Origin: Salinarchaeum sp. Harcht-Bsk1
GTDB taxonomy: Archaea; Halobacteriota; Halobacteria; Halobacteriales; Salinarchaeaceae
DNA length: 64,000 nucleotides
NCBI RefSeq assembly: GCF_000403645.1
Contig: NC_021313.1
Location: 1,116,001-1,180,000, forward strand
Reading direction: 5' to 3'
The notes under the pieces were generated by a model, which was given only the letters and a program-made list of their open reading frames with translations, was not told the DNA's origin and did not search any database. Position numbers and translations under genes: made by a program. Below are positions 6,788 to 28,206 of the stretch, piece by piece (the first letter of the stretch is position 1; each line of letters begins with the position of its first letter).

Positions 6788-7573
6788 CTACACCGTCTGG
6801 CCGCCGTCGACGACCATGGCGTGCCCGAGGACGAACGACGCCGCGTCCGAGCACAGCCAGAGCACCGCGTTGGCGATCTCCGCGGGCTCGCCCATCCGTC
6901 CGATCGGCTCCTGTTCGACCACCGACTGGCGGCCGCCCTCCCTGTCGTCGGTGACGCGATCCATCATCGACGTGTCGATAATGCCCGGACAGACGGCGTT
7001 GATGCGGAGATCCGTGTCCGCGTACTCGAGGGCTGCCGACTTCGTGAGGCCGACGACGCCGTGTTTCGCGGCGACGTACCCGGATTCGGGGAAGCCTCGA
7101 ATGCCAGCACCCGAGGAGATATTGACGATCGCACCGCCATGCTCTCGAATCGGTGGGATCTGGTACTTCATCGAGAGGAAGACGCCACGCAGGTCGGTGT
7201 CCAGGAGCCGGTCCCATTCCTCGACGTCCAGGTCCGCCGTCTTCACCGAGCGCTGTTCGACGCCGGCGTTGTTGCAGGCGTAGTCCAGCCGGCCGAACTC
7301 GTCGATCGTTCGCTCGATCGCCGCCTGGACTTCCGCGGGTTCCCGAAGGTCGCACGTGACGGCGAGTGCGTCGCTCCCGAGCGCGTCGATCCGCTCGGCT
7401 GTCTCTCGGTTGCCCGCTTCGTCGATGTCGGCGACGACGACGGCGGCACCCTCCTGAGCGAATGCCAGCGCCGTCGCGCGGCCGATCCCGCCCGCCGCGC
7501 CGGAGACGAACGCGACCTCGTTCTCAAAGTCGAAGTACTCGCGCTGTGGGGTCGGCTGTACGTTGTCGGGCAT
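6788..7573 (-). CDS. short-chain dehydrogenase/reductase (FabG-like)
   Basis: A 261-residue classical SDR: SGAAGGIG near residue 24, CDLREP (adenine-ring Asp) near 73, YACNNAGVEQ near 97, catalytic Ser in NISSGAG near 150, and YVAAK near 164. The end reads LGHAMVVDGGQTV as in FabG and sugar/alcohol dehydrogenases. The acidic residue in VVADIDEAG after the second strand suggests NAD(H). The substrate cannot be told. It is followed on the same strand by the other SDR, which may be co-transcribed although the gap is 142 bases. Confidence 0.88.
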   Translation of the reverse strand: MPDNVQPTPQREYFDFENEVAFVSGAAGGIGRATALAFAQEGAAVVVADIDEAGNRETAERIDALGSDALAVTCDLREPAEVQAAIERTIDEFGRLDYACNNAGVEQRSVKTADLDVEEWDRLLDTDLRGVFLSMKYQIPPIREHGGAIVNISSGAGIRGFPESGYVAAKHGVVGLTKSAALEYADTDLRINAVCPGIIDTSMMDRVTDDREGGRQSVVEQEPIGRMGEPAEIANAVLWLCSDAASFVLGHAMVVDGGQTV

Positions 7574-7768
7574 CGAGAATCACCACGACCGTCACTGCCT
7601 TACGTTCGTCCATCGGTTCGGAGCCCGCCGAGACCGTCGAGATCGACGAGCGGTAGCGATGGCGAACCGTCGAGAGACGTGGTGCCGATCGGCGAGTCTC
7701 GGGCGTTGCCTCTGTGAACGGCGTACCCGCTGGATCCGGAGGTCGCAGAGGATACCGGGCGTAGCGCT

Positions 7769-8077
7769 CTACCCGCCGCTTCCCGCGGTGTCACCCTCCT
7801 CCAGCCGCCGCTCGTACTTCGCGAGCGCGCCCGAAAGTGCGGCCTCCGCGTCGACGTCCGCCGCCTCGGCGAGCGCGAGCAGCGAGAAGTAGACGTCGCC
7901 GAGCTCGTCGGCCGACAGGTCGATCGCATCGGGATCGGTGCCGTAGCCCGTCGATTCGTTCGCCTCCTTCGCGAGTTCGCCTGTCTCGCTCACGAGATCG
8001 AGCAGGCGGTAGGCCGGCGGCGCCGAGAGGTCCTTGTCCGCGACGAAGGCGGCGACGCGTTGCTGTGGGTCGTCCAT
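7769..8077 (-). CDS. MazG-like nucleotide pyrophosphohydrolase
   Basis: A 102-residue all-alpha protein with the MazG/dUTPase-like Mg2+ motif in two halves, SETGELAKEAN near residue 31 and ADELGDVYFSLLALAE near 57. Such proteins hydrolyse NTPs to NMP and pyrophosphate, often as house-cleaning enzymes. It is single-domain, half the size of E. coli MazG. The C-terminus (EEGDTAGSGG) is a disordered tail. A weak TATA-like GATTTTCGG sits about 25 bases upstream of ATG 8077. The exact substrate is unknown. Confidence 0.75.
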   Translation of the reverse strand: MDDPQQRVAAFVADKDLSAPPAYRLLDLVSETGELAKEANESTGYGTDPDAIDLSADELGDVYFSLLALAEAADVDAEAALSGALAKYERRLEEGDTAGSGG

Positions 8078-8150
8078 GCGACGTCGTTCGAACCGATGGC
8101 CGAAAATCGGGGGGTTTCAGCCTGGCGCGGGCTCGGGCTCGCCAGCTGCG

Positions 8151-10013
8151 TCAGCCCCAGCCGCGACCGTCGTCGTCATCGTCGTCGCCCCATTCGCGGT
8201 CGTCATCGTCGTCATCCTCCCTGTCGTGACCGCGTCCACGGCCGTTCCCGCGGTCGTGGCCGTTCACGACCTCGAACATCCGCATCATCTCGTGTTCCTC
8301 GTGCTCGAGGACGTGGCAGTGGAAGGGGTACTTGCCCGCGAAGTCGCCGAACTTCACGGCGATGCGGACCGTCTCGTCGGGATTGACGCGGACGACGTCC
8401 TTCCCACCGCGCTCGTTCGGGTGGGGCGGTTCGGTGCCGTCCTGGCCGCGACCGATCACGGTGAACTCGACGAGGTGGAGGTGTAGCGGGTGGGTGTGCA
8501 TCGAGGTGTTCGAGATCTCCCAGACCTCGGTCGTGCCGAGCTGGGGTTCGATCTCGATCGGATCGCCCCAGCGCTTGTCATTGAGGGTGTGGAGTCCCGG
8601 ATCCGAGCCCATCTGCATCTCCATCGAGATCTGGCGGGTCTCCTGGGCGGCCCGCTCGGTGGGGGTGTGGCGGTACGGCATCCTGAGATCCGTCGGGTGG
8701 CGGGTCCGGTCCCAGCCGTCGCTCTCCTCGGCGACCTCGAACTGCATGATCTCGTGGATCTGGGGGTGGTCGCCGCCGCCGTGGCCGTCGTCGCCGCCCA
8801 TCTCGCCATCGCTGTCCATGTTCCCCATCCCGCCGTCGTGACCGTCGCCGTGGCTGCCACCGGAGTAGGGGAACTGGGCGTCGTTCGTCATGGTGATCGT
8901 CTCCCCGGCGTGATCCGAGAAGTCGACGACGACCTCCGCGCGCTCGAACGGCGCGATCACGAGCGTCTCCATGTCGCCGCCGTGACCGATCTCGACGACC
9001 TCCTCGAGGAAGCCGTGGCCGGTGGCGATCTGGTACATCGAGAGGCCCTCGCCGCCGTCGTCGTGGTCGCCGCTATCGCCGTCGTGTCCGTCGCCCTCGC
9101 TGGCGAGGTTGAGTCCGTACGTTCGCCCGTTCGAGGGGTTGAGAATCCGGAAACGGTACCGGCGCGGCTCGACCTCGAAGGTCGGCCACGCGGCGCCGTT
9201 GACGGTCGCGACGTCGCCGGCGAAGTTCGCGACGAACTCGTCGGGGTAGTACAGCAAGCCGTCCTCGTGGAAGGCCCGGTCGGCGAGGACGAGCGGCACG
9301 TCGTGCTCGTCCTCGGGGAGCCCCATGTGGCGCTCGCGCCAGCCCTTGACGATGTACGGACCGACGAGGCCGGCGTAGTTGTTGAGTCGGCTGATGCCGC
9401 GGGCGTGGTCGTGGTAGACCGTGGACATCCGGGCGTTGCGGTTGGGGATCTCCTGGACGGGCTCCGAGAACCGCGGGCCAGTCACGCCCTCGGGCGAGGT
9501 CCACATGTCCGCCTGGCCGTCGCTGGCCGTCGGCGTGTTCAGCCCGTGGAAGTGCGTGACCTGACGGACCTCCGGCACCGGCCCGTCGTAGTCGTGGTAG
9601 TTCTCCGTGGTCGTCCCCCGGATCTCCTCGTCGACCTCGAAGACGTGCTCGGTGGGCAGGTCGGAGGTGTCGAAGTGAACGCGGAGCCGGCGGTACTGCC
9701 AGCTCTCGATGATCGGGCCGGGGAACTGCCCGTCGAAGCCCAGAATCTTCGAGTCGGGGATGTCGGGGTGGAACGAGTGGGTCCCCGCCTCGACGCTGAC
9801 CTCGTGATAGGGCGCACCGCGATCCCGTCCGTCGGGTTCACGCGTCTCGGGAATCGGGAGTGGCTGGGCGAACTTCTCGAGGTCGGGCGACCCGTCCCAG
9901 GACGCGTGGTGGTCGCCATCGCTTTCCTCGGACGCGGCAGCGAGTGGGAGCCCAGCCACGGTGCCGAGCGCAGCACCAGTCTGGAGCAAGCCGCGTCGTG
10001 ATATCGGATTCAT
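8151..10013 (-). CDS. Tat-exported multicopper oxidase (laccase/CotA-like)
   Basis: A 620-residue secreted oxidase. The N-terminus NPISRRGLLQTGAALG is a Tat signal. Copper motifs appear in order: THFHGLNT near 152, YHDHARGIS near 199, HTHPLHLHLVEF near 515 and HCHVLEHEEHEMM near 575, giving the type 1 site and trinuclear cluster. An axial Met follows the last His group. It oxidises phenols, bilirubin-like pigments or metal ions with O2; Haloferax LccA is a relative. A Gly/His/Asp/Met-rich insert near residues 385-420 may bind extra copper. The C-terminus is a poly-Asp tail. Confidence 0.9.
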   Translation of the reverse strand: MNPISRRGLLQTGAALGTVAGLPLAAASEESDGDHHASWDGSPDLEKFAQPLPIPETREPDGRDRGAPYHEVSVEAGTHSFHPDIPDSKILGFDGQFPGPIIESWQYRRLRVHFDTSDLPTEHVFEVDEEIRGTTTENYHDYDGPVPEVRQVTHFHGLNTPTASDGQADMWTSPEGVTGPRFSEPVQEIPNRNARMSTVYHDHARGISRLNNYAGLVGPYIVKGWRERHMGLPEDEHDVPLVLADRAFHEDGLLYYPDEFVANFAGDVATVNGAAWPTFEVEPRRYRFRILNPSNGRTYGLNLASEGDGHDGDSGDHDDGGEGLSMYQIATGHGFLEEVVEIGHGGDMETLVIAPFERAEVVVDFSDHAGETITMTNDAQFPYSGGSHGDGHDGGMGNMDSDGEMGGDDGHGGGDHPQIHEIMQFEVAEESDGWDRTRHPTDLRMPYRHTPTERAAQETRQISMEMQMGSDPGLHTLNDKRWGDPIEIEPQLGTTEVWEISNTSMHTHPLHLHLVEFTVIGRGQDGTEPPHPNERGGKDVVRVNPDETVRIAVKFGDFAGKYPFHCHVLEHEEHEMMRMFEVVNGHDRGNGRGRGHDREDDDDDDREWGDDDDDDGRGWG

Positions 10014-17655: not shown

Positions 17656-17865
17656 TCAGGATCCGAACGTCGCCCCACGGTAGACCACGTAGCCACAGAA
17701 TACGCCGAGATAGAACACCGCGAGCACCGCCGTCAGCAGCGATCGGCCCAGGAGGACGATCAGCACGATCACGACCGGCCCGAGGAGCAAGAGGGAGTCG
17801 AACACGCGGTCGTCCGCACCAGATTCGAACACCTGCGAAACCACCGGAAGATCGTCGAGATTCAC
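17656..17865 (-). CDS. 69-aa two-span membrane protein coupled to trkH
   Basis: A GTG at 17865 overlaps the TGA stop of trkH in a GTGA junction, and the frame encodes 69 residues. They read a polar N-terminus (VNLDDLPVVSQVFESG), then two hydrophobic stretches (LLLLGPVVIVLIVLLGRSL and LTAVLAVFYLGVFCGYVVY), then a short tail. No known motif is seen. Tight coupling to trkH suggests an accessory or assembly subunit of the potassium channel complex, in the way small KdpF-like peptides accompany Kdp. This is inference. Confidence 0.7.
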   Translation of the reverse strand: MNLDDLPVVSQVFESGADDRVFDSLLLLGPVVIVLIVLLGRSLLTAVLAVFYLGVFCGYVVYRGATFGS

Positions 17866-19412
17866 GCGTACAACCCACCTCGCTGGAACACGGTGCGGAG
17901 CATCACGAGCACCGGGATGATTTCGAGTCGACCGATCCACATGTGGAAGAGGAACGTGACTTTCCCGATCGTCGGCAGCGAATCGGGGCCAGTAATGCCA
18001 CTGGAGAGCCCGACGTTCCCCTGCGCACTGGCCACCTCGAAGAAGACGTTTGGCAGCGTATAGTCGTCCGCAGGAAGCGCGAGGAGTAGCACGAACGTGC
18101 CGACGACGAGGAACGTGACCCAGAGGACGAAGACGATCGCTGCTTCCATGAACTCTCGACTCGACGCTTCGTCGTTCAGCCGACGGCCGTTGATAACCAA
18201 GCGGCGCACTGCACTCTCCGGGTAGAAGACCTCTGAGATCTGATACCGGATGCCCTTCGCGAGCGTCAGTCCACGGATGATCTTGATCCCGCCAACGGTC
18301 GATCCAGCGGCCCCGCCGACGAACATGCCGAACGTAACCGTAAGCTGGGCGTAGGATGGCCACCGGCCGATCGCCACGTTCGTCGCGTCGACGGCCGTCT
18401 GGAAGCCCGTACACGTGGCCGCCGAGACGAACTGGAACAGGCCATAGCGGAGCGCTGCGAAGGGAGTCTCGTAGGGACCCGCGAAGTAGAGCAAGCCCCA
18501 CAGCAGCGCCGACCCGGTGCTCATGTAGAGAAAGACCCATCGCGTCTGCAGATCGCTGTAGAAGTTGCGGAGGTCTCCCTGGAGAATGAGGTAGTGGACG
18601 GGGAACGCGATGCTCCCGAGGAGCATGATGGGGATGAGCGCGAAGTCGATGGCGACGCTGTCGTAGGTCGCGATCGAGTTGTCGGTGATCGAGAACCCGC
18701 CCGTCGAGAGCCCCGTCATCGCGTGATTGATCGCGCCCCAGATCGGCATCCCCGCCAGCCACAGCGTGAGGATAGCGCCGAAGGTGAAGAGGATGAAGAT
18801 CCACCAGATCGTTCGGACCGTCGAAACGACGCTGGGATGGATCTTCTCCGATCGCGCCTCGCTTTCGTAGAGCGTCAGCGACCCACTGCCGGGCCGTGAG
18901 AGGATCGCCGTCGTGAGCACGATCACGCCGACGCCACCGACCCACTCGCTGAAGGTCCGCCACCACTGGAGCGTCCGCGGCAGCGCACTTTCGTCGTCTG
19001 TCATCGTGAGTCCGGTGCCGGTGAACCCGCTCATGCTCTCGAAGATCGCGTTGAGTGGATTCGTGAACGCCGCCAGCGTTGCGGTCTGCTGTGGGGTCGA
19101 GACGATCGGCACGCCGAGTTCGACGCTCCACGCGACGAGCAGGAACGGAAGTGAGCCGAAGAGGCCGACGAAGAGCCAGCCCGCCGCGGCCACGATCATG
19201 CCGTGGAGCCGGCCCGGTGCATCCGCGCTCCTGTATCGGCGGTAGAGGAACCGGCCGATACCCAGTGGGACGACTGCAGAGACGAGCAATGCGGGGAGGG
19301 CGAAGTACTCTCCCCAGGCGAGCGTGACGAGAACCGAGACGATCATGAGGCCGCCGAGCGCCTCCAGTATCCGTCCAACGTCTCTCCCGATCGTCGCAGC
19401 TGCTCCGCTCAT
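17862..19412 (-). CDS. trkH: TrkH-type potassium uptake channel subunit
   Basis: A 516-residue membrane protein with the four TrkH/KtrB pore repeats. The filter segments are SGFTGTGLT near residue 128, GLSTGGFS near 234, ATCTGFQT near 332 and QGNVGLSSG near 464, each with the key Gly. GGAAGSTVGGIKIIR near 366 matches the conserved gating/loop region of TrkH. It forms the K+-conducting subunit, gated by a TrkA ring. trkA lies 60 bases upstream on the same strand and a 69-aa membrane gene overlaps the stop, so it belongs to a multigene transcript. Confidence 0.93.
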   Translation of the reverse strand: MSGAAATIGRDVGRILEALGGLMIVSVLVTLAWGEYFALPALLVSAVVPLGIGRFLYRRYRSADAPGRLHGMIVAAAGWLFVGLFGSLPFLLVAWSVELGVPIVSTPQQTATLAAFTNPLNAIFESMSGFTGTGLTMTDDESALPRTLQWWRTFSEWVGGVGVIVLTTAILSRPGSGSLTLYESEARSEKIHPSVVSTVRTIWWIFILFTFGAILTLWLAGMPIWGAINHAMTGLSTGGFSITDNSIATYDSVAIDFALIPIMLLGSIAFPVHYLILQGDLRNFYSDLQTRWVFLYMSTGSALLWGLLYFAGPYETPFAALRYGLFQFVSAATCTGFQTAVDATNVAIGRWPSYAQLTVTFGMFVGGAAGSTVGGIKIIRGLTLAKGIRYQISEVFYPESAVRRLVINGRRLNDEASSREFMEAAIVFVLWVTFLVVGTFVLLLALPADDYTLPNVFFEVASAQGNVGLSSGITGPDSLPTIGKVTFLFHMWIGRLEIIPVLVMLRTVFQRGGLYA

Positions 19413-19472
19413 GCGCCTGTCGAGCGACCGCGCTGCATTCTGTCGAGGGTTCCCACGTTCGACATTGTCAGA

Positions 19473-20159
19473 TCACTCGGCGTGGTCCTCGTAGTGGCCG
19501 AAAATATCGGTGATCTCTGGATCGGCCCCAACGGCGGAATACACCGTCAAGAGATCCCCCGATTCGAACGTGATCCCTCCACGGGGCGTGATCGGCTGAT
19601 CGACGCCCGATCGTTCGATCGCTACGACGAGCATGTCGTCGGTGAGGATGCCATCGGCGGCTGCTTCTTCTATCGTCTTCCCAACGATGGGCGCGTTCTC
19701 CGTGACGGTGATCTCGAACACCTCTGCGTCTTCCCCGATTCGCATGTAATCGACGATCGCGGGGCGGGCGACTGCCCGGTAGAGGTACTCGGCGATGAGC
19801 TCCTGTGGATTTTCCATGGTATTGACGCCGATCTGCTTGAACAGGCCCATGTGCTCGGGGTTGTGAACGACCGAGAGGATCGACGGGACCTCGAACTCCT
19901 GGGCCAGCAGACAGACCATGATGTTCGTCGCGTCCTGATCGGTCGTCGAGATGAGGGCGTCTGCCCTGTCCGCTCCTGCGTCTTCGAGCGTGTCCTTCGT
20001 CGTCGCGTTGTCGTTGAGAACGAGGCAGTCGAAATCGTCTGCTGCTCGATTCGCACGAGCCTCGTCCTTCTCGATCACGACGACCTCGTTTCCGGATCGC
20101 GTCGCGATGTCGATCAGTGGCGTACCGATGTCGCCTGCTCCAACGATAATGATGTACAT
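19473..20159 (-). CDS. trkA: TrkA potassium channel regulatory subunit
   Basis: A 228-residue protein with an RCK_N Rossmann domain (YIIIVGAGDIGTPLID at the start, VVVIEKDEARA with the acidic nucleotide-binding Glu, residues 1-135) and an RCK_C domain (VFEITVTENAPIVGKTIEE, about 145-220). RCK_N binds NAD(H)/ATP-type ligands and RCK_C binds ligands such as c-di-AMP in several families. It controls TrkH, encoded just downstream. The stop of the APC-Usp gene lies 6 bases upstream. One RCK pair per chain implies an octameric gating ring. Confidence 0.93.
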   Translation of the reverse strand: MYIIIVGAGDIGTPLIDIATRSGNEVVVIEKDEARANRAADDFDCLVLNDNATTKDTLEDAGADRADALISTTDQDATNIMVCLLAQEFEVPSILSVVHNPEHMGLFKQIGVNTMENPQELIAEYLYRAVARPAIVDYMRIGEDAEVFEITVTENAPIVGKTIEEAAADGILTDDMLVVAIERSGVDQPITPRGGITFESGDLLTVYSAVGADPEITDIFGHYEDHAE

Positions 20160-20165
20160 GGATAA

Positions 20166-22496
20166 TCACACCGCCAGTCGCTGTGAAATCGCCTGCCGTA
20201 TCGACGTTGGTGAGCGTTCCTGACCGCGAGCCATCACCACGGTTCGGTTCACGTTGGCACCGATCGTCTCGGGCAGTGATCCGAACACCGCCTGTGAGAC
20301 TGCGCCGGAGCGCGTCGCCCCGACGCAGACAGTGTCGTACTCGTCGGCAGCGTCGATAATCGCCCGTTCAGTGTCCTCCGCGACGATCACCTCCGTCCGG
20401 ACGGTGGCGTCCGCAATATCCGCGGCCTCGATGACGTCGTCGATGATCGCCTCACCTCGGTCGGTGGGCGATTCCGCCTCGTCCTCCGCAGGTGATTGGA
20501 CGTTGAGGAGCGTGAGTGAGGCGTCCTCCGCCGCTGCAGCGAACTCCGCGGCACGACGAGCCGCGACGGACGCGTGTGGCCCTTCGCCCGCGAGGACCAT
20601 GATGTCCCCACGTCCACGGCCTCCCTCGGGCCCGAGTTTGACGAGCGTCGTGTCACACGGTGCGCGACCGACGACCGGATCGATCGTCGATCCGAGGACG
20701 TGCTCACGTCGGCTCTGTGTTCCTTGCCAGCCGAGGAGCACGTGATCCGCATTCTCCTCCTCGATGACGTCGAGGATCACCGAGCCAGCGTTCCGGCCGA
20801 CGATCGCCCGCGTTTGCAACCCGACGTCGAGGTCGGCAGCGATGTCCCGTGCCGTCTCCAGCAGTTCCTGCTGGCGCTGGACCCGCTCCTCCTCGAACGC
20901 GAGGTCCTGCGACAGCGACGTCTGCCGAGGGACCTCGATGACGTTCACTGCGATCAACTCCGCCTGCTCGTCTTCGTGGGCGTGGGCGCTTGCGGCAGCC
21001 ATCCGAAGCAGGTCCCGTTCCGTCTCGGGATTTGCTATCGGAACCACGACGCGATAGCGTCCCGTGCCGTCGCCGACTGCGGTCGGTTCCGGGGCGATTG
21101 CGTCACCGACGAGACTCCTGCTGGGCGCTCGGTCACTCGCATAGACGAAGTACCAGACGACGCCGAACGCGACGATAACGGCCCCGATGGCCTGCACGAC
21201 GACGCTCATCTGCACCAGGATCGCCAAACAGGCGACGAACCCCACGATCGGGACGATCGGGTAGAGCAGCCGCGGAATTTTGAAGGCCGGATCGTACGCC
21301 TCCGGGTCGGCGCGCCGGAGGACCACGACGGCGACGTGAACCAGCGCGTACGTCACGAGATACATGAAACTCGCCACCTCTGCGAGCGTATCGATTCCCA
21401 CACCGACCGCGATCAGCAGCAGCGTGATGATCCCGGTAGCGGTGATCGCGCGGTAGGGCGTTCGGAACCGCTCGTGGACTTCGTTGAGCCAGTCGACGAG
21501 GATGCGATCGCGTCCCATGGCGAAATTGACGCGAGCCGCGGACAGGATACTGGCATTCGCACTCGATACCGTTGCGAGCACCGCTCCCACGATCATCAAC
21601 AGTGCGCCGAAGGACTCGGCTGCTGATGGAGAGATATCGACGAATGGAATCCGGGAGACGCCCGTTGCCAGTGGCGAAAAGATATTCTCGGCTACGTCTG
21701 CCACCGGAATCTGCGAGGAGGAGAGCGCGTCGATCGAGAGCGTTCCTGTCGCCACGAACATCACGCCGACGTACATCAACGTCGGCGTGACCACGGCGGC
21801 GATCATCGCAAGGGGGAGATTCCGGCTCGGATTCTTGATCTCTTCTGCGCTGGTCGCGATGACCTCGAATCCGATGAACGTCACGTAGACCGTACCGATC
21901 GTCGCGGCGACCGCTGGCCAGCCGTTCGGATTGAACTCCTGATAGCTCGGGCCACTGATAAACCCGAGCGCCAGAAATGCGAAAATGAGTCCGACCAGCG
22001 TGAGCACGATGACGTTCTGCAGTGCGCCCGTCTCCTTTACGCCGTAGTAGTTGACCGCCGTCAGGAGTGCTGCCATGACGAGGGCGGCGACCGTGATCCC
22101 CAGTTCTCCCCACCCTGCCAGGAACCCGACGTACTGGCCGAGACCCGGGAGGAGGTACTGGCCGAACCCGATCATGTAGAAGGCGCTCGCGAACGTCAAT
22201 CCCGCCCACATTCCCCAGCCGACGATGCTTCCGAAAAAGGGGCCAAGCGCCCGGTTGACGTAGTAGTAGCTTCCGCCGGCTTTCGGCATTCCGGTCGCTA
22301 GCTCCGACAGCGAGAGCGCGGCCAGGAGCGACACCAGTCCGCCAGCAAAGAACGAAACCATGCTCGCTGGGCCAGCCTGTTCGGCAGCGATACTCGGGAG
22401 GACGAAGATGCCCGCACCGATCATCGTCCCGAGGCCGATCGTGTAGGCCTCCAGGAACCCGAGGTCGCGGGCGAGTTCCTGATCCGCTTCACTCAT
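20166..22496 (-). CDS. APC-superfamily transporter fused to Usp domains
   Basis: A 776-residue fusion. Residues 1-about 460 form an APC transporter with some 12 membrane segments, opening EAYTIGLGTMIGAGIFVLP, the unwound TM1 substrate motif. After YFVYASDRAPSR come two Usp-like domains, the first starting YRVVVPIANPETERDLLRMA near 490 and the second GDIMVLAGEGPHASVAARRA near 635. Annotated as amino acid permeases, related APC-Usp proteins may instead carry cations; bacterial KimA is an APC-type K+ transporter with a cytosolic regulatory domain. It sits between uspA and trkA in one run, so a role in osmotic balance is likely. Substrate unproven. Confidence 0.85.
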   Translation of the reverse strand: MSEADQELARDLGFLEAYTIGLGTMIGAGIFVLPSIAAEQAGPASMVSFFAGGLVSLLAALSLSELATGMPKAGGSYYYVNRALGPFFGSIVGWGMWAGLTFASAFYMIGFGQYLLPGLGQYVGFLAGWGELGITVAALVMAALLTAVNYYGVKETGALQNVIVLTLVGLIFAFLALGFISGPSYQEFNPNGWPAVAATIGTVYVTFIGFEVIATSAEEIKNPSRNLPLAMIAAVVTPTLMYVGVMFVATGTLSIDALSSSQIPVADVAENIFSPLATGVSRIPFVDISPSAAESFGALLMIVGAVLATVSSANASILSAARVNFAMGRDRILVDWLNEVHERFRTPYRAITATGIITLLLIAVGVGIDTLAEVASFMYLVTYALVHVAVVVLRRADPEAYDPAFKIPRLLYPIVPIVGFVACLAILVQMSVVVQAIGAVIVAFGVVWYFVYASDRAPSRSLVGDAIAPEPTAVGDGTGRYRVVVPIANPETERDLLRMAAASAHAHEDEQAELIAVNVIEVPRQTSLSQDLAFEEERVQRQQELLETARDIAADLDVGLQTRAIVGRNAGSVILDVIEEENADHVLLGWQGTQSRREHVLGSTIDPVVGRAPCDTTLVKLGPEGGRGRGDIMVLAGEGPHASVAARRAAEFAAAAEDASLTLLNVQSPAEDEAESPTDRGEAIIDDVIEAADIADATVRTEVIVAEDTERAIIDAADEYDTVCVGATRSGAVSQAVFGSLPETIGANVNRTVVMARGQERSPTSIRQAISQRLAV

Positions 22497-22556
22497 CGAT
22501 CGTCACCTCTCGTCGTCGACGGCTCGCCTTCCCCGATGATCGAACGGTCGTTTCTT

Positions 22557-22976
22557 TCATGCTTCGTCGTCCCCTTCGGGAAGGGCGATTACCGGCCGAT
22601 CCGCTTCGGTGACGAGCTTGAGAGCCGTGTCGCCGGAGAGGAACTGGACGATCCGGCTACCGCCTCGCGGGCGGAACGCGATCGCGCTCGCCTGGACGTC
22701 GGCGGCAGTGTCGACAGTCGCTCCGACGACGTCTCGGTGGTAGACCAGCTCCGTCGCTGCGTTCGGGATGGTTTCTCGAAACGCAGCGAAGGCGTCCTCG
22801 GCCCGCTGTTCGGCTTGCTCGACGGAGAGCTTGTCCGGTGCACCGCCTGCCTTCTCGACGACGTGAACGACAGTCACGCGGTCGCACTCGTACCCACCGA
22901 GGATCGCTGCCGTGGCGCGTGCATCTTCTTCGTTCGCGACCGGGACGAGCAGATGGTCCGTGATCGAAGTCGGCAT
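22557..22976 (-). CDS. UspA-like universal stress protein
   Basis: A 139-residue single Usp domain from ATG 22976 ([20 protein letters not shown]). The fold elements are present, but the nucleotide-binding G-2x-G-9x-G(S/T) motif is degenerate, reading [20 protein letters not shown], which contains a partial match. It could bind ATP weakly or act as a partner. The zinc-ribbon gene stops 4 bases upstream and the APC-Usp gene starts 60 bases downstream, so all are likely co-transcribed. A longer frame upstream is antisense-like and rejected. Confidence 0.82.
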
Positions 22977-22980
22977 ATCG

Positions 22981-23433
22981 TTAGTCCTCACCCGATTCCT
23001 CGGTTTGTTCACTCCCGCAATGCGGACAGACCGCCGTGTCGCCAACGATCGTTCCGCCACAGGAATCACACCGGGCCTGCTCCGAATCGTGGACGTCGCC
23101 CAAAAACCGCCACTCCAGGGTTTCCTCCCCATCGGGATGCGGTGTCCGCTGAACGTGGTACATGGAAGTCACGTGCGTTGCCGCGCCGTCTCCATCCGGA
23201 TCGTCTGGATGCTTACGAACGATTGCGTAGGCGCCGTGATTTTCGATCTCGAGTACGTCGCCACTGGCAGTCGCTCTGATTTCGTCTTCGAGCGGGGTCC
23301 GAATCGATTCGATGCGCCGCTGTGCATAGGAGACCACTGCTTTCAACTCGGATATCTCGAGGCCGTCGAGCCGTTCGATCAGGGCGTCTGAAAGCTGGTC
23401 TGATGGATTCGGTGCCTCCCCTGATTCAGTCAT
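22981..23433 (-). CDS. zinc-ribbon protein heading the trk-associated operon
   Basis: A 150-residue soluble protein. Residues 1-55 are a helical region ([26 protein letters not shown]), the middle (60-110) is a predicted beta domain ([16 protein letters not shown]), and the C-terminus is a zinc ribbon with two Cys pairs (CDSCGG and CPHCGS, near 121-140). No family is recognised. It is the first gene of the minus-strand run leading to trkA-trkH, with only 4 bases before uspA. The layout would suit a regulator or adaptor, but this is inference. Confidence 0.75.
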
Positions 23434-23835
23434 CTTACGCCTCCGTATCGGAACCGCCCCTCGGCGAGTTGGTCGTCGTACGTTCGCTACGTACCTCTTG
23501 GAACGGTCGAACAGACGGCACTCCGCTGTCAGTCGCTCGGATTCGGATGTGCGTGCGCGCCAGAACTGGGGGCGGCGTCGAGACGGATGGCGGTACGGGC
23601 ATGGAGGGACAGATGGAACGGAATGATAAAAATACCTAGGGTCTGCGAACGATAGCGAACTTATAGAGAGAAGAATTTTCTAATCGTTTTTTCCAATCGT
23701 TCTGGCGTCTCACTGCCCTGAACCGGTGAAGCACGGTTCACGTATTCGCCTGTATGCCGGCGATCGGGCCTCGCTGCAAACAGATGCGTGATCAAAACAT
23801 CAATACTACCGGAGGACCATCTCCGTCGTATAAAT
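23434..23835. promoter_or_regulatory. divergent regulatory interval of the trk cluster
   Basis: A 402-base gap between the zinc-ribbon gene (minus) and the Lrp-RCK_C regulator (plus), with an AT-rich core at 23620-23705. It contains GCGAAC twice (23645-23650 and 23655-23660, spaced 10), AATCGTT twice (23682-23688 and 23695-23701, spaced 13), and TATA-like words CTTATAG near 23660 and, on the minus strand, GTATTTTTATC near 23626-23636. Repeats one helical turn apart are what an Lrp-type dimer would bind. The regulator gene and the operon probably both start here and have leaders over 100 bases. Confidence 0.5.
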
Positions 23836-24594
23836 ATGAGCCTTGAGATCGATTCGATCGACGAACGTATCCTCTACTATCTGGCACAAGAGGCTCGACA
23901 CACGTCCGCGCCCGACATCGCCGAGAACGTCGACGTCTCACCGCCGACGGTGCGAAATCGGATCCGCCGACTCGAGGAGGAAGGGGTCATCCGGGGCTAT
24001 CACGCCAACATCGACTATCAGAAGGTCGGTGGACGACTGACGAACCACTACGTCTGTAGTACTGGGAATCGCGACCGGCAGGAAATGGCGCAGCGAGTGC
24101 TCGACATTCCCGGAGTCATCAACGTCAGAGAGATCATGTCCGGCAAGGGGGATCTCCGAATTTCGGTGGTGGGGTCCGATACGCAGGACCTCACGCGGAT
24201 CGCGCAGGACATCACCGCGCTCGACATCGAGATCGACGACGAAGACCTCGTTCACCGAGAGTATCTCCGCCCGTTCGCCCCGTTTGGGCCACGCGACGCG
24301 GACCTGGTTTCGCCCGTGACCGGCGTCGCCGGTCTCGCTGGAGACGCCGACGTCGTCGAGGTGCTCGTTCGAGAGAGCGCACCCATCGCCGGTCGAACGC
24401 TGCAGGAAGCGAACGAACGCGATATCGTGCCGCCGGACGTGTTGGTCGTCCGGATCAATAGAGACGACGACTCGATCACGCCAACGGGGGAGACGGCAAT
24501 CAGAGAAGGCGATTTCGTCACGATTCACTCGCGGACGGGCGTGACCGACGCAACGCTCGAAGCGTTCACCGGCCACTCTTCGGACGCAGAATAG
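23836..24594 (+). CDS. Lrp/AsnC-type regulator with TrkA-C (RCK_C) domain
   Basis: A 252-residue protein. Residues 1-60 are an AsnC-type winged helix (IDSIDERILYYLAQEARHT, then VSPPTVRNRIRRLEEEGVI). Residues 65-150 resemble the RAM-like ligand domain. Residues 170-245 are an RCK_C domain (VVEVLVRESAPIAGRTLQE) that aligns with TrkA encoded 3.7 kb away, where the same segment reads VFEITVTENAPIVGKTIEE. It is divergent from the trk operon. It probably reads the same K+-related ligand as TrkA and controls the operon; this is inference. The start is ATG 23836, as 16 upstream codons do not look like HTH sequence. Confidence 0.85.
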   Translation: MSLEIDSIDERILYYLAQEARHTSAPDIAENVDVSPPTVRNRIRRLEEEGVIRGYHANIDYQKVGGRLTNHYVCSTGNRDRQEMAQRVLDIPGVINVREIMSGKGDLRISVVGSDTQDLTRIAQDITALDIEIDDEDLVHREYLRPFAPFGPRDADLVSPVTGVAGLAGDADVVEVLVRESAPIAGRTLQEANERDIVPPDVLVVRINRDDDSITPTGETAIREGDFVTIHSRTGVTDATLEAFTGHSSDAE

Positions 24595-24769
24595 CCGGTT
24601 CGGTCGCGACCGTGGCAGGCGAGGCGACGGGAGTCGAGACGGCGATCGACGTATCGAGGCTGACGGGACCGATTCGGGAAACGCGGCGCGAGTCCCAGGG
24701 GATCAGACCGGGGCCGGATCGAAGCGGGCCGATGGCCAACCCGAGCGAACGCCCGGGTGGCGAGACGCG

Positions 24770-27079
24770 TCAGTCGGCTGGGCTCGTCCGTCCTCGTGCG
24801 GACACGCCGAGAGGGCCCGGCACCGACAGGTCGACGCGCCGGAGCAACTGGGCGTTGATCGCGACGATCACGGTAGAAAGCGACATCAACACCGCACCGA
24901 CCGCGGGCGAGAGCACGACGCCGATCGGCGCCAGGACGCCCGCTGCAAGTGGGATCGCGAAGACGTTGTAGCCGGCCGCCCAGACGATGTTCTCCTGCAT
25001 CTTCCGGTAGCTGGCCTTGCTCAGCTTCACGAGCCGGACGACGTCCATCGGATTGTTCTGGACGAGGATCACGTCGGCCGACTGGACGGCGACGTCGGTG
25101 CCGCTCCCGATGGCGATGCCGACGTCGGCCCGCGTCAGTGCCGGCGCGTCGTTGACGCCGTCGCCGACCATCCCGACGCGATTGCCCTGGTCCTGGAGCT
25201 CCTGGATCTTCACGTCCTTGTCCTCGGGCAGTACCTCGGCGAACACGGTGTCGATGCCCAGTTCGTCCGCCACCGCATCGGCCACGTCCCGTGAATCGCC
25301 GGTCAGCATCGCGACCTCGATGCCCAGTTCGTGGAGCGCGTCGACGACAGCGTAGCTCTCCTCTCGGATCACGTCCGCCATCGCGAACGCGGCGAGCAGC
25401 TCGCCCTCGCGGCTCGCGGGGCCGTCGTCCCCGCTCCCTCCCTCCGGGACCTCCATTCGCTCGGCCCCGCGGACGAGATAGACCACTGTCTGGGCGTTCT
25501 CGCCGGCTTCGTCGGCGAACGACTGCAGTTCCGGCAGTACGCCGCTCTCGAGCTGGTGCAGCAGGTTCGGACCGCCGACGTAGAGCTCCTCACCACCGAC
25601 GAGTGCGCGAACGCCCCGTCCCTTGATCGCCTCGAACGCCCTCGATTCGGGCACGTCGACGCCTCGCTCGCTGGCCGCCTCGCGAATCGCGCGGGCGATC
25701 ACGTGCTCGGAGTCGCCCTCGACCGCGGCCGCGAGCGCCAGCGCCTCGTCAGCGTCGACGCCCTCGACGGTCGCCGTCCCGACGACGCCGTGTTCGCCCT
25801 CGGTGAGGGTCCCGGTCTTGTCGAAGACGATCGAATCGAGGTTCCTGGCGTCCTCCATCGCGATGCGATCCCGGATGAGCATCCCATTGCGTGCGGCCAG
25901 GGACGTGTTGATAGCGACGACGAGCGGGATCGCCAGCCCCAGCGCGTGCGGGCAGGCGATGACGAGCACCGTCACGACGCGTGCGATCACCTCGGCGTCG
26001 AACGTGACGGCGACCGTCCAGGCCACGCCGGTCACGGCCGCGGCCGCGACGGCGACGTAGAACAGCCAGCCAGCCGCCCGGTCGGCGAGCACCTGGGTCC
26101 TGGACTTGCTCTGCTGGGCCGACTCGACGAGGCGCATGATCCCCGCGAGGGTCGTGTCCTCGCCGATCGCGTCGACGCGAACGCGGAGGCTTCCGTCGCC
26201 GTTGACGGTGCCGCCGATGACCTCGTCGCCGGGCGTCTTCGAGACCGGCCTCGACTCGCCGGTGATCATCGCCTCGTTCACGTCGGAGTCGCCCTCCTCG
26301 ACGACCCCGTCGGCGGGAACGCTCGCCCCGGGCCGCACCAGCACGAGGTCGCCTTCGGAGAGCTGGTGGACCGGGACCTCCTCGGTCTCCCCCGACTCGA
26401 CGATGCGCTCGGCCGTGTCGGGCATGAGTTTGGCGAGTTCGTCGAGGGCGCTGGAAGCCCGCCGGACCGACCGCATCTCGATCCAGTGGCCCAGTAGCAT
26501 GACGTCGATCAGGGTCACCAGCTCCCAGAAGAAGGGCTCGCCCCAATCGACGGCCACCGTCGCCAGACTGTAGACGAACGCGACGGAGATCGCCATCGAG
26601 ATGAGCGTCATCATGCCGGGTGCGCGATCGCGGAGCTCCGGGACTGCCATCCGGAGGAAGGGTACCCCGCCGACGGCGAAGACGATCACCGAGAAGACGG
26701 GGGAGATCCACTCGCTCCCCGGGAACGCTGGCGCGGAGAACCCCAGCCACCCCTGGAGCGTTTCGCTATAGAGCAACACTGGGATCGAGAGCAGCGTCGC
26801 GACGAAGAAGCGACGACGAAACAGCTGCTCGTGGCCCTCGTGCATCCCGCCGTGGCCTCCGTGATCGCCGGCGTCTCCGTGGCTGCCGCGGTCTCCATGA
26901 CCACCGTCACCGCCTGGGCCGCCCTGGTCGTGCTGCCCCTGCCGACCTGCTCCCGCGTGGCGCGCCTGGTTTTCGAGCATCGACTGCTCGCGAGGCGTAT
27001 CCTCGGCCGGTTCGCCTGCACCGTGCCGGGAGTGGTCCTGCGACGGCCCCACCGCCGACTCACGTTCGTGATCGTCCAT
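24770..27079 (-). CDS. copB: CopB-type heavy-metal P-type ATPase
   Basis: A 769-residue P1B-ATPase. The N-terminus (1-88) is rich in His and Gly and probably binds metal. Eight membrane segments and the catalytic core follow: actuator MITGESRP near 272, ion-site ACPHALG (Cys-Pro-His) at 375-381, phosphorylation site DKTGTLT near 420, and hinge [10 protein letters not shown] near 640. The CPH motif marks the CopB (P1B-3) group that exports Cu+, Cu2+ or Ag+ and gives resistance. The start is ATG 27079; upstream codons are spurious. No copper chaperone gene adjoins it, although other copper proteins lie elsewhere in the window. Confidence 0.88.
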
Positions 27080-27291
27080 GCATTCGATCCGTTGGAACGA
27101 CAGTTCGCTGCCGAAGATAATGGAACTATGGCCAGCAACGGCCAGTGCCCGAGAGCCCGTGGTCGTCACGAAGTCGGCAGCGTCCCGGACCGGCCGCTCA
27201 CGTCGGTGGCACCGAACGGACGCCCGAGTGGCGAGACGTCGCACGCACCGCTGCCAAACGAACGTAAGGCTGCGACGCCTACAGAAACGGT

Positions 27292-27583
27292 GTGCCCGAC
27301 GATACCCCAACCACTGACGCCATCGACGAACGGCTCGAGAAGATCGGCCGCTTCTCCCGGTACAGTACGATCGGGCTCTGGACCATCCTGGGCGCGTTCG
27401 CGATCGCCGTCGTCGGACGGCTTCCCTACAACCTCGATTCCGTCCCCAGCGTCGTCGATGCGATCCTGCTGCCGCTGATCTTCGTCGATGGGGTTCCTCC
27501 TCTTCGGGATCGGCATGCACCTCCACCTGCTCCACCTGAACCTCGTGAAGCAGTTGCGGGCGGAGGGAAGCGACGACGGGTAG
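27292..27583 (+). pseudogene. frameshifted small membrane protein
   Basis: From GTG 27292 the frame reads [19 protein letters not shown], then a membrane span ([19 protein letters not shown]) and the start of a second ([12 protein letters not shown]). At about 27490 sense is lost, and the +1 frame continues with [20 protein letters not shown] and a polar end to TAG at 27581-27583. The join lies at TCGATGGGG, consistent with one inserted base or a sequencing error. The intact protein would have about 96 residues and two membrane helices. Otherwise it is a broken gene. No family is recognised. Confidence 0.7.
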
Positions 27584-28206
27584 CAGGTGGGACGCTGCCG
27601 AGGGAGCTGGCACGCGTTCGGATTCAGTGTCCCGATTCGCGTCCGCTTCGTGGTCCACTCCGCCCCCGTAGATTCGAAACACCGGCGACTGTAGCCGTAC
27701 CCGGAGTGTTGGAGGAGACGGACTTCGACGCCGTTGGTTCCCTCCCAGCACCGTGTGGACGTGAAGCAGAACGTCGATCGAGGAGACAGCCGTTCGTACG
27801 CATGTGGGAACCCGGAACGATCTCCGCGAGCCGACGGACGAAGCGGCGGTCCTATTCGGGCGAACGGCCTCGAGAAGACCTACACCGAACGCAACGCCGA
27901 CCGTCGTTGCCCCGGATCTGCACGCGATCGTCCTCACCGACGAACGTAGCATTCTCCCAGATATCCTCTGTGCGGGCCGAAGCGTCGGCTGCCATCTTCC
28001 CTACCGTGACGCCGTATAGCGGTCTGAACGTTTGTGGGGTTGCGTGCAGCGGATCGACAGTTCCGACCCCTGTTCGTGGGCATCGCGACCGTCACGTGCC
28101 CCGCGCACGATACGTGTCTCGACCCGGAGCTGCGGGGATACGACGGATCTGGGGGTGCGTACAACGCTTATTCCGTCAGCGCGCCTTTTTAGGGGCGATA
28201 GAATCG
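27584..28206. other. gene-free stretch, possible decayed region
   Basis: Over 600 bases show no protein-like frame on either strand and no RNA gene is recognised. A TATA-like run (CCTTTTTAGG) at 28184-28193 belongs to the next gene. The interval follows a frameshifted gene, so it may be decayed coding DNA. Confidence 0.45.

Follow-up and report, generated by a model that had tools for sequence, protein, structure and literature searches.

A Trh2-type Lrp regulator with a TrkA-type RCK_C domain faces a conserved trk operon and a candidate operator in haloarchaea

Haloarchaea balance external salt by very high cytoplasmic K+, and in the literature searched no specific transcriptional regulator of haloarchaeal trk operons is described. 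The closest known protein is Trh2 (VNG1285G) of Halobacterium salinarum, reported in 2014 as a TrkA-C domain fused to an Lrp protein. In that report the fusion is said to be restricted to haloarchaea, its RAM domain is judged likely non-functional, K+/NAD+ is guessed as the effector and the predicted role of the protein is that of a conditional activator (PMC4236453). A later survey tallies HTH + TrkA_C proteins family by family in haloarchaea (PMC8229911). In Streptococcus and Lactococcus, BusR is a c-di-AMP-responsive GntR-RCK_C repressor of solved structure (PMC8517857). Archaeal Lrp activators, for their part, bind as dimers just ahead of BRE, at a distance of a few bp, and their sites are two or three helical turns apart (PMC2995911). 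Given Trh2 and BusR, the architecture discussed below is already known, and bacteria provide a proven case of a transcription factor that carries a channel ligand domain (PMC4236453, PMC8517857). What is added here is the conservation of a trk neighborhood, a candidate operator with a 29-bp spacer and the placement of the fused regulators in a single Lrp clade.

The window, a 64,000-nucleotide stretch of the Salinarchaeum sp. Harcht-Bsk1 genome, encodes a protein of the Trh2 type (Table 1). Its reading frame has zero internal stops, and the equivalent ATG serves as start in all orthologs. The N-terminal helix-turn-helix places it among the Lrp/AsnC (FFRP) proteins (HTH_24, E=1.2e-13, residues 6-53; HTH_AsnC-type, 1.2e-9), and the C-terminal TrkA_C match lies above the curated Pfam cut-off. 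The RAM domain between them is degenerate, as AsnC_trans_reg reaches only E=0.0028; its fold is recognizable, with Foldseek matches to solved Lrp proteins at E about 1e-9 over about 148 columns. A structure model built from a 67-sequence alignment has a mean pLDDT of 80. Its N-terminal half retrieves solved Lrp/AsnC proteins, and BusR and TM1088B are also returned. The C-terminal domain modeled in isolation (pLDDT 85.6, with a core above 90, at about 95) adopts the RCK_C fold and finds TM1088B and Vibrio TrkA as its best matches, with the c-di-AMP binder CpaA (5f29, 4ys2) lower. An earlier note on this DNA had read the protein as an Lrp-type regulator ending in RCK_C and had proposed modeling that domain; profiles, predicted structure and fold comparison all agree with its reading.

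Table 1. Features of the regulator gene, the facing trk cluster and the region between them (positions in the window)
Feature	Coordinates	Strand	Evidence or remark
TrkH K+ uptake subunit	17862..19412	-	TrkH 5.4e-81
TrkA, single RCK_N + RCK_C, 228 aa	19473..20159	-	TrkA_N 1.4e-28, TrkA_C 9.4e-12
APC-family permease fused to USP domains	20166..22496	-	AA_permease_2 1.4e-53, Usp 7.6e-30
Protein of 150 aa with C-terminal zinc ribbon, first large gene of the trk cluster	22981..23433	-	Weak zinc-ribbon matches (Pfam)
Possible short leader ORF (55 codons)	23435..23602	-	ATG about 25 bp downstream of TATA-like box; tentative
TATA-like box, trk-side promoter (ATAAAAA on +; ATAAATA in orthologs)	23626..23632	-	14 aligned orthologous regions
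Candidate operator, inverted repeat AACGAT-N29-ATCGTT	23648..23688		Conserved in close orthologs; single genomic copy
Tandem 13-bp direct repeat TTTTCTAATCGTT/TTTTCCAATCGTT, TTTTC(T/C)AATCGTT	23676..23701	+	Duplicates right half-site in this genome
Lrp/AsnC-type regulator with C-terminal RCK_C, 252 aa, Trh2-type	23836..24594	+	Pfam, predicted structure
AsnC helix-turn-helix, residues 5-53	23848..23994	+	Pfam
Degenerate RAM domain, about residues 60-140	24013..24255	+	AsnC_trans_reg below cut-off; Lrp/AsnC fold matches of model
RCK_C / TrkA_C domain, residues 173-230	24352..24525	+	TrkA_C E=2.4e-10; model; Foldseek

Helix-turn-helix, weak RAM and C-terminal TrkA_C within one chain constitute the architecture described for Trh2 and its haloarchaeal relatives. 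The accessible parts of that literature propose K+/NAD+, not c-di-AMP, and mention neither a trk neighborhood nor an N29 operator (PMC4236453, PMC8229911). BusR likewise is a transcription factor that ends in RCK_C and is tied to osmolyte and ion transport; it differs in having a GntR winged helix with a coiled-coil ruler and no RAM, and in repressing busA (PMC8517857). The N-terminal half of the present protein consists of AsnC helix-turn-helix and RAM rather than the GntR winged helix and coiled-coil tetramer of the BusR family.

The regulator faces the trk operon, as the earlier note had stated. Across an intergenic region (23434-23835) it diverges from a minus-strand operon that encodes the zinc-ribbon protein, the APC-USP permease, TrkA and TrkH, and each of the 15 named orthologs, from Haloferax, Halorubrum, Halobellus, Halosimplex, Haladaptatus, Halorussus, Halolamina and others (70-83% identity), diverges from a zinc-ribbon-(APC-USP)-TrkA-TrkH series. 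The zinc-ribbon protein, present at each of these 15 loci, is a possible third component of the system. Profile matches to it were also seen near several paralogous regulators. The nearest solved structures to the APC-USP protein are amino-acid transporters. A KimA-like role in K+ transport was considered for it and set aside, the matches being headed by amino-acid transporters and then cation-chloride cotransporters, with KimA absent among the 60 matches listed.

The association extends well beyond close orthologs. Of the 78 RCK_C regulators, 64 have TrkH or TrkA at most 5 kb away (24/24 in the ortholog group and 40/54 among paralogs), and 72 have TrkH, TrkA or an APC transporter at that range; such neighbors accompany only three of 20 control Lrp genes from the same order that lack RCK_C. 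The Fisher p values for trk linkage against these controls (3.8e-8 for all regulators, 7.5e-6 for paralogs only) are only indicative, because the loci are related and not independent and the 54 paralogs were chosen as best-scoring rather than at random. Among the six paralogs with neither TrkH, TrkA nor an APC transporter nearby, two adjoin a Na+/H+ antiporter and a Na+/Ca2+ exchanger.

In 16 upstream regions the stretch between the divergent genes carries AACGAW-N29-WTCGTT, always with a 29-bp spacer and at -184 to -188 from the regulator ATG. A blind inverted-repeat scan found AACGA-N31-TCGTT in 16/24 sequences, where no repeat exceeded 2 in shuffled sequences. This locus holds the one copy of the motif in the 3.26-Mb genome, against a chance expectation of 0.01 in the window, and the reversed pattern used as a control is absent. 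Both the inverted repeat and the direct repeat that overlaps it fall inside 23640-23705, the region that had been named for footprinting. An exact match was found neither in the more diverged orthologs nor in any paralog examined, so the pairing of operator and regulator rests on one clade; a common operator was sought across the paralogs and none was found. The loci being related by descent, repeat and trk linkage could both be relics of shared ancestry devoid of regulatory meaning. That account is very improbable, as the half-sites average 1.88 bits per base while the spacer has diverged to 0.70, the linkage is kept among paralogs although their gene order varies, and even beyond the order, in an archaeon of low GC content, USP and APC-USP genes accompany the regulator.

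On the trk side, the TATA-like box stands at a fixed distance from the candidate operator (-22 to -16), and about 25 bp beyond it lies a conserved CAT, which would be an ATG or the operon start site. The near edge of the repeat is about 148 bp from the regulator start. Such a position, just upstream of BRE/TATA, and the spacing of the half-sites recall Ptr2, LysM and Ss-LrpB, which share the Lrp fold and differ in lacking RCK_C and in their targets and signals (PMC2995911). The two half-sites may also be likened to those of BusR, which are about three DNA turns apart (PMC8517857). Most orthologs have short frames comparable to 23435-23602 that stop immediately ahead of the zinc-ribbon gene; their protein sequence is poorly conserved, and the frame here is possibly a leaderless leader peptide. 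No riboswitch or other RNA family was found in 17800-24800.

The likely explanation is that this is a Trh2-type Lrp regulator of monovalent-cation homeostasis that acts through the inverted repeat, most likely activating trk, with RCK_C as its input. The repeat at 23648-23688, to which its helix-turn-helix would bind, precedes the TATA box of the divergent operon by about 16 bp and is over 100 bp away from the promoter of the regulator itself. Bound at this site, the protein would most likely activate the operon in the manner of Ptr2/LysM-type activators, which act from sites just upstream of BRE. RCK_C would serve as a dimerizing input module of the TrkA type, through which regulator and channel gate may sense one and the same physiological variable. 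Because it combines a sensor-type domain like that of TrkA with an adjacent position and a conserved site that it faces, the protein very probably controls the neighboring potassium-uptake genes. It is probably an activator: position, which matches that of archaeal Lrp activators, favors activation over repression. The independent prediction of Trh2 as a conditional activator counts in favor of this explanation (PMC4236453). An upstream site could instead repress, by DNA wrapping.

Homology of the C-terminal domain to TrkA is clear. The earlier note had aligned its key segment VRESAPIAGRTLQE with VTENAPIVGKTIEE of TrkA, and the domain as a whole shares 41% identity (84 aa) with the RCK_C of the neighboring TrkA (19473-20159), 47% with that of a second TrkA elsewhere in the genome and 41-48% with haloarchaeal TrkA RCK_C domains. 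Such identities indicate that the likeness of the two segments is due to homology rather than chance. With TrkA and KtrA the regulator thus has a homologous RCK_C in common; it differs from them in lacking the RCK_N nucleotide-binding domain, in carrying a DNA-binding domain and in being no channel subunit.

Could the same domain bind c-di-AMP, as the earlier note had suggested? As a haloarchaeal counterpart of BusR, the regulator would bind c-di-AMP on its RCK_C dimer, switching DNA binding and coupling trk transcription to the second messenger. The fold is right, and Foldseek finds BusR at probability 1.00. Production of c-di-AMP is plausible, since the genome contains a diadenylate cyclase gene (DAC, PF02457), and in Haloferax the nucleotide is made, essential and tied to osmoregulation (PMC6741144). 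The binding pocket argues otherwise. At the positions equivalent to BusR 153, 154, 157-160, 164-166, 180 and 181 the regulator has L, Q, N, E, R, V, V, L, V, T and G, where S. aureus KtrA has I, I, D, I, R, A, I, N, I, N and P (PMC8517857, PMC7288161). Most of these 11 positions differ, although substitution-matrix pocket scores fail to separate binders from non-binders, the proven binder KtrC scoring as low as the regulator. Binders' G/I, V/I, H/A, T/N and P are replaced by Q, E, V, L and G, and of the BusR pocket residues I153, N157, H160, A164 and P181 most are not conserved (PMC8517857). N193, which matches the ribose-binding N/D of BusR and KtrA, is kept in 17/20 orthologs. Pocket hydrophobics are nonetheless lost (Q190, E194), and the last proline of the SPxP found in most binders gives way to a nearly invariant glycine in TPxG, a motif common to TrkA-type domains. 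The pocket loop has a 2-residue insertion, and most orthologs carry acidic residues at 194-195 (R195 is peculiar to the window protein; elsewhere the residue is mostly E/D). With binder residues replaced both here and in the window TrkA, which departs from the pocket as the regulator does, the known c-di-AMP binding mode is disfavored. Moreover, among solved RCK_C domains those of the TrkA type come closest, and BusR is reached by profile only at E=0.95.

Genes for DHH(-DHHA1) proteins, possible c-di-AMP phosphodiesterases, adjoin the paralogs at L056 (6032-7390), L061 (8881-9945), L065 (3-614) and L078 (6913-7998). Their presence next door in a few paralogous loci would suit a c-di-AMP circuit; such genes also lie near 2/20 control Lrps and are not enriched, and this linkage was dropped as support. 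A BusR-like switch is thus rather unlikely, and c-di-AMP is not favored as the signal. The tie to the trk operon that had been proposed for the regulator survives as a functional link, through conserved synteny and a conserved candidate operator at the trk-side promoter; c-di-AMP as its signal is not supported.

An effector of another kind could act elsewhere in the chain. If RCK_C set the oligomeric state only and an amino acid bound to RAM were the effector, the protein would be an ordinary feast/famine regulator with transporters as incidental targets. A RAM fold is present and the neighboring APC-USP protein resembles amino-acid transporters. Yet RAM is weakly matched by its profile, almost every member of the clade has kept RCK_C, and the RAM of Trh2 was judged likely non-functional (PMC4236453). 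The probability of this reading is low.

The history of the fusion bears on how RCK_C is used. In an Lrp tree, all 78 fused regulators belong to one group, which includes just two unfused proteins (support 0.78) and is separate from the control Lrps (support 0.988), and 77/78 of their RCK_C domains cluster separately from those of TrkA, with weak support. A single fusion event fits this pattern of one regulator group whose RCK_C stands apart from TrkA domains. Close relatives that lack RCK_C (L074-L082) mostly adjoin a stand-alone RCK_N protein, and the tie to RCK modules therefore probably predates or parallels the fusion. At L074-L077 and L080-L082 (about 7400-9150 each) this neighboring TrkA_N protein has ~140-180 aa and is often followed by APC-USP. 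Such pairs are a possible two-piece version of the regulator.

RCK_C domains dimerize, and the domain could be a protein-protein module that forms mixed dimers with TrkA, in which case the state of the channel ring would decide whether the regulator is sequestered or free. The 41-48% identity of the two domains, their invariable co-occurrence in the ortholog group and the RCK_N partners just mentioned all suit such contacts. The separate clustering of regulator and TrkA domains, weakly supported as it is, speaks against them, and mixed dimers are unlikely. A broader idea can be offered tentatively, as a possibility short of probable: trk transcription and channel gating may both be under homologous RCK_C domains that read one shared input, a ligand or direct regulator-TrkA contact, via a fixed-spacing bipartite operator, an independent archaeal parallel to BusR.

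Under the preferred explanation, a Trh2-type regulator acting on trk, haloarchaeal trk control gains a named candidate regulator, a probable operator and a conserved target operon. The question is testable in Haloferax, where the orthologs L040 and L044 carry the same candidate operator, and such tests would also reveal whether the regulator and the gate of the channel answer to a common signal.

Outside the order, the genomes searched yielded no full-length fusion besides one in a low-GC (36%) archaeon from another family of the phylum. There the regulator (L148, 7866-8627) lies beside USP and APC-USP genes; its carrier is possibly a salt-in methanogen, or the gene may have been transferred. 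In the window itself, beyond the conserved cluster, the minus strand at 24770-27952 encodes a P-type ATPase of the heavy-metal (copper) type, whose frame has a long extension ahead of the transport domains.
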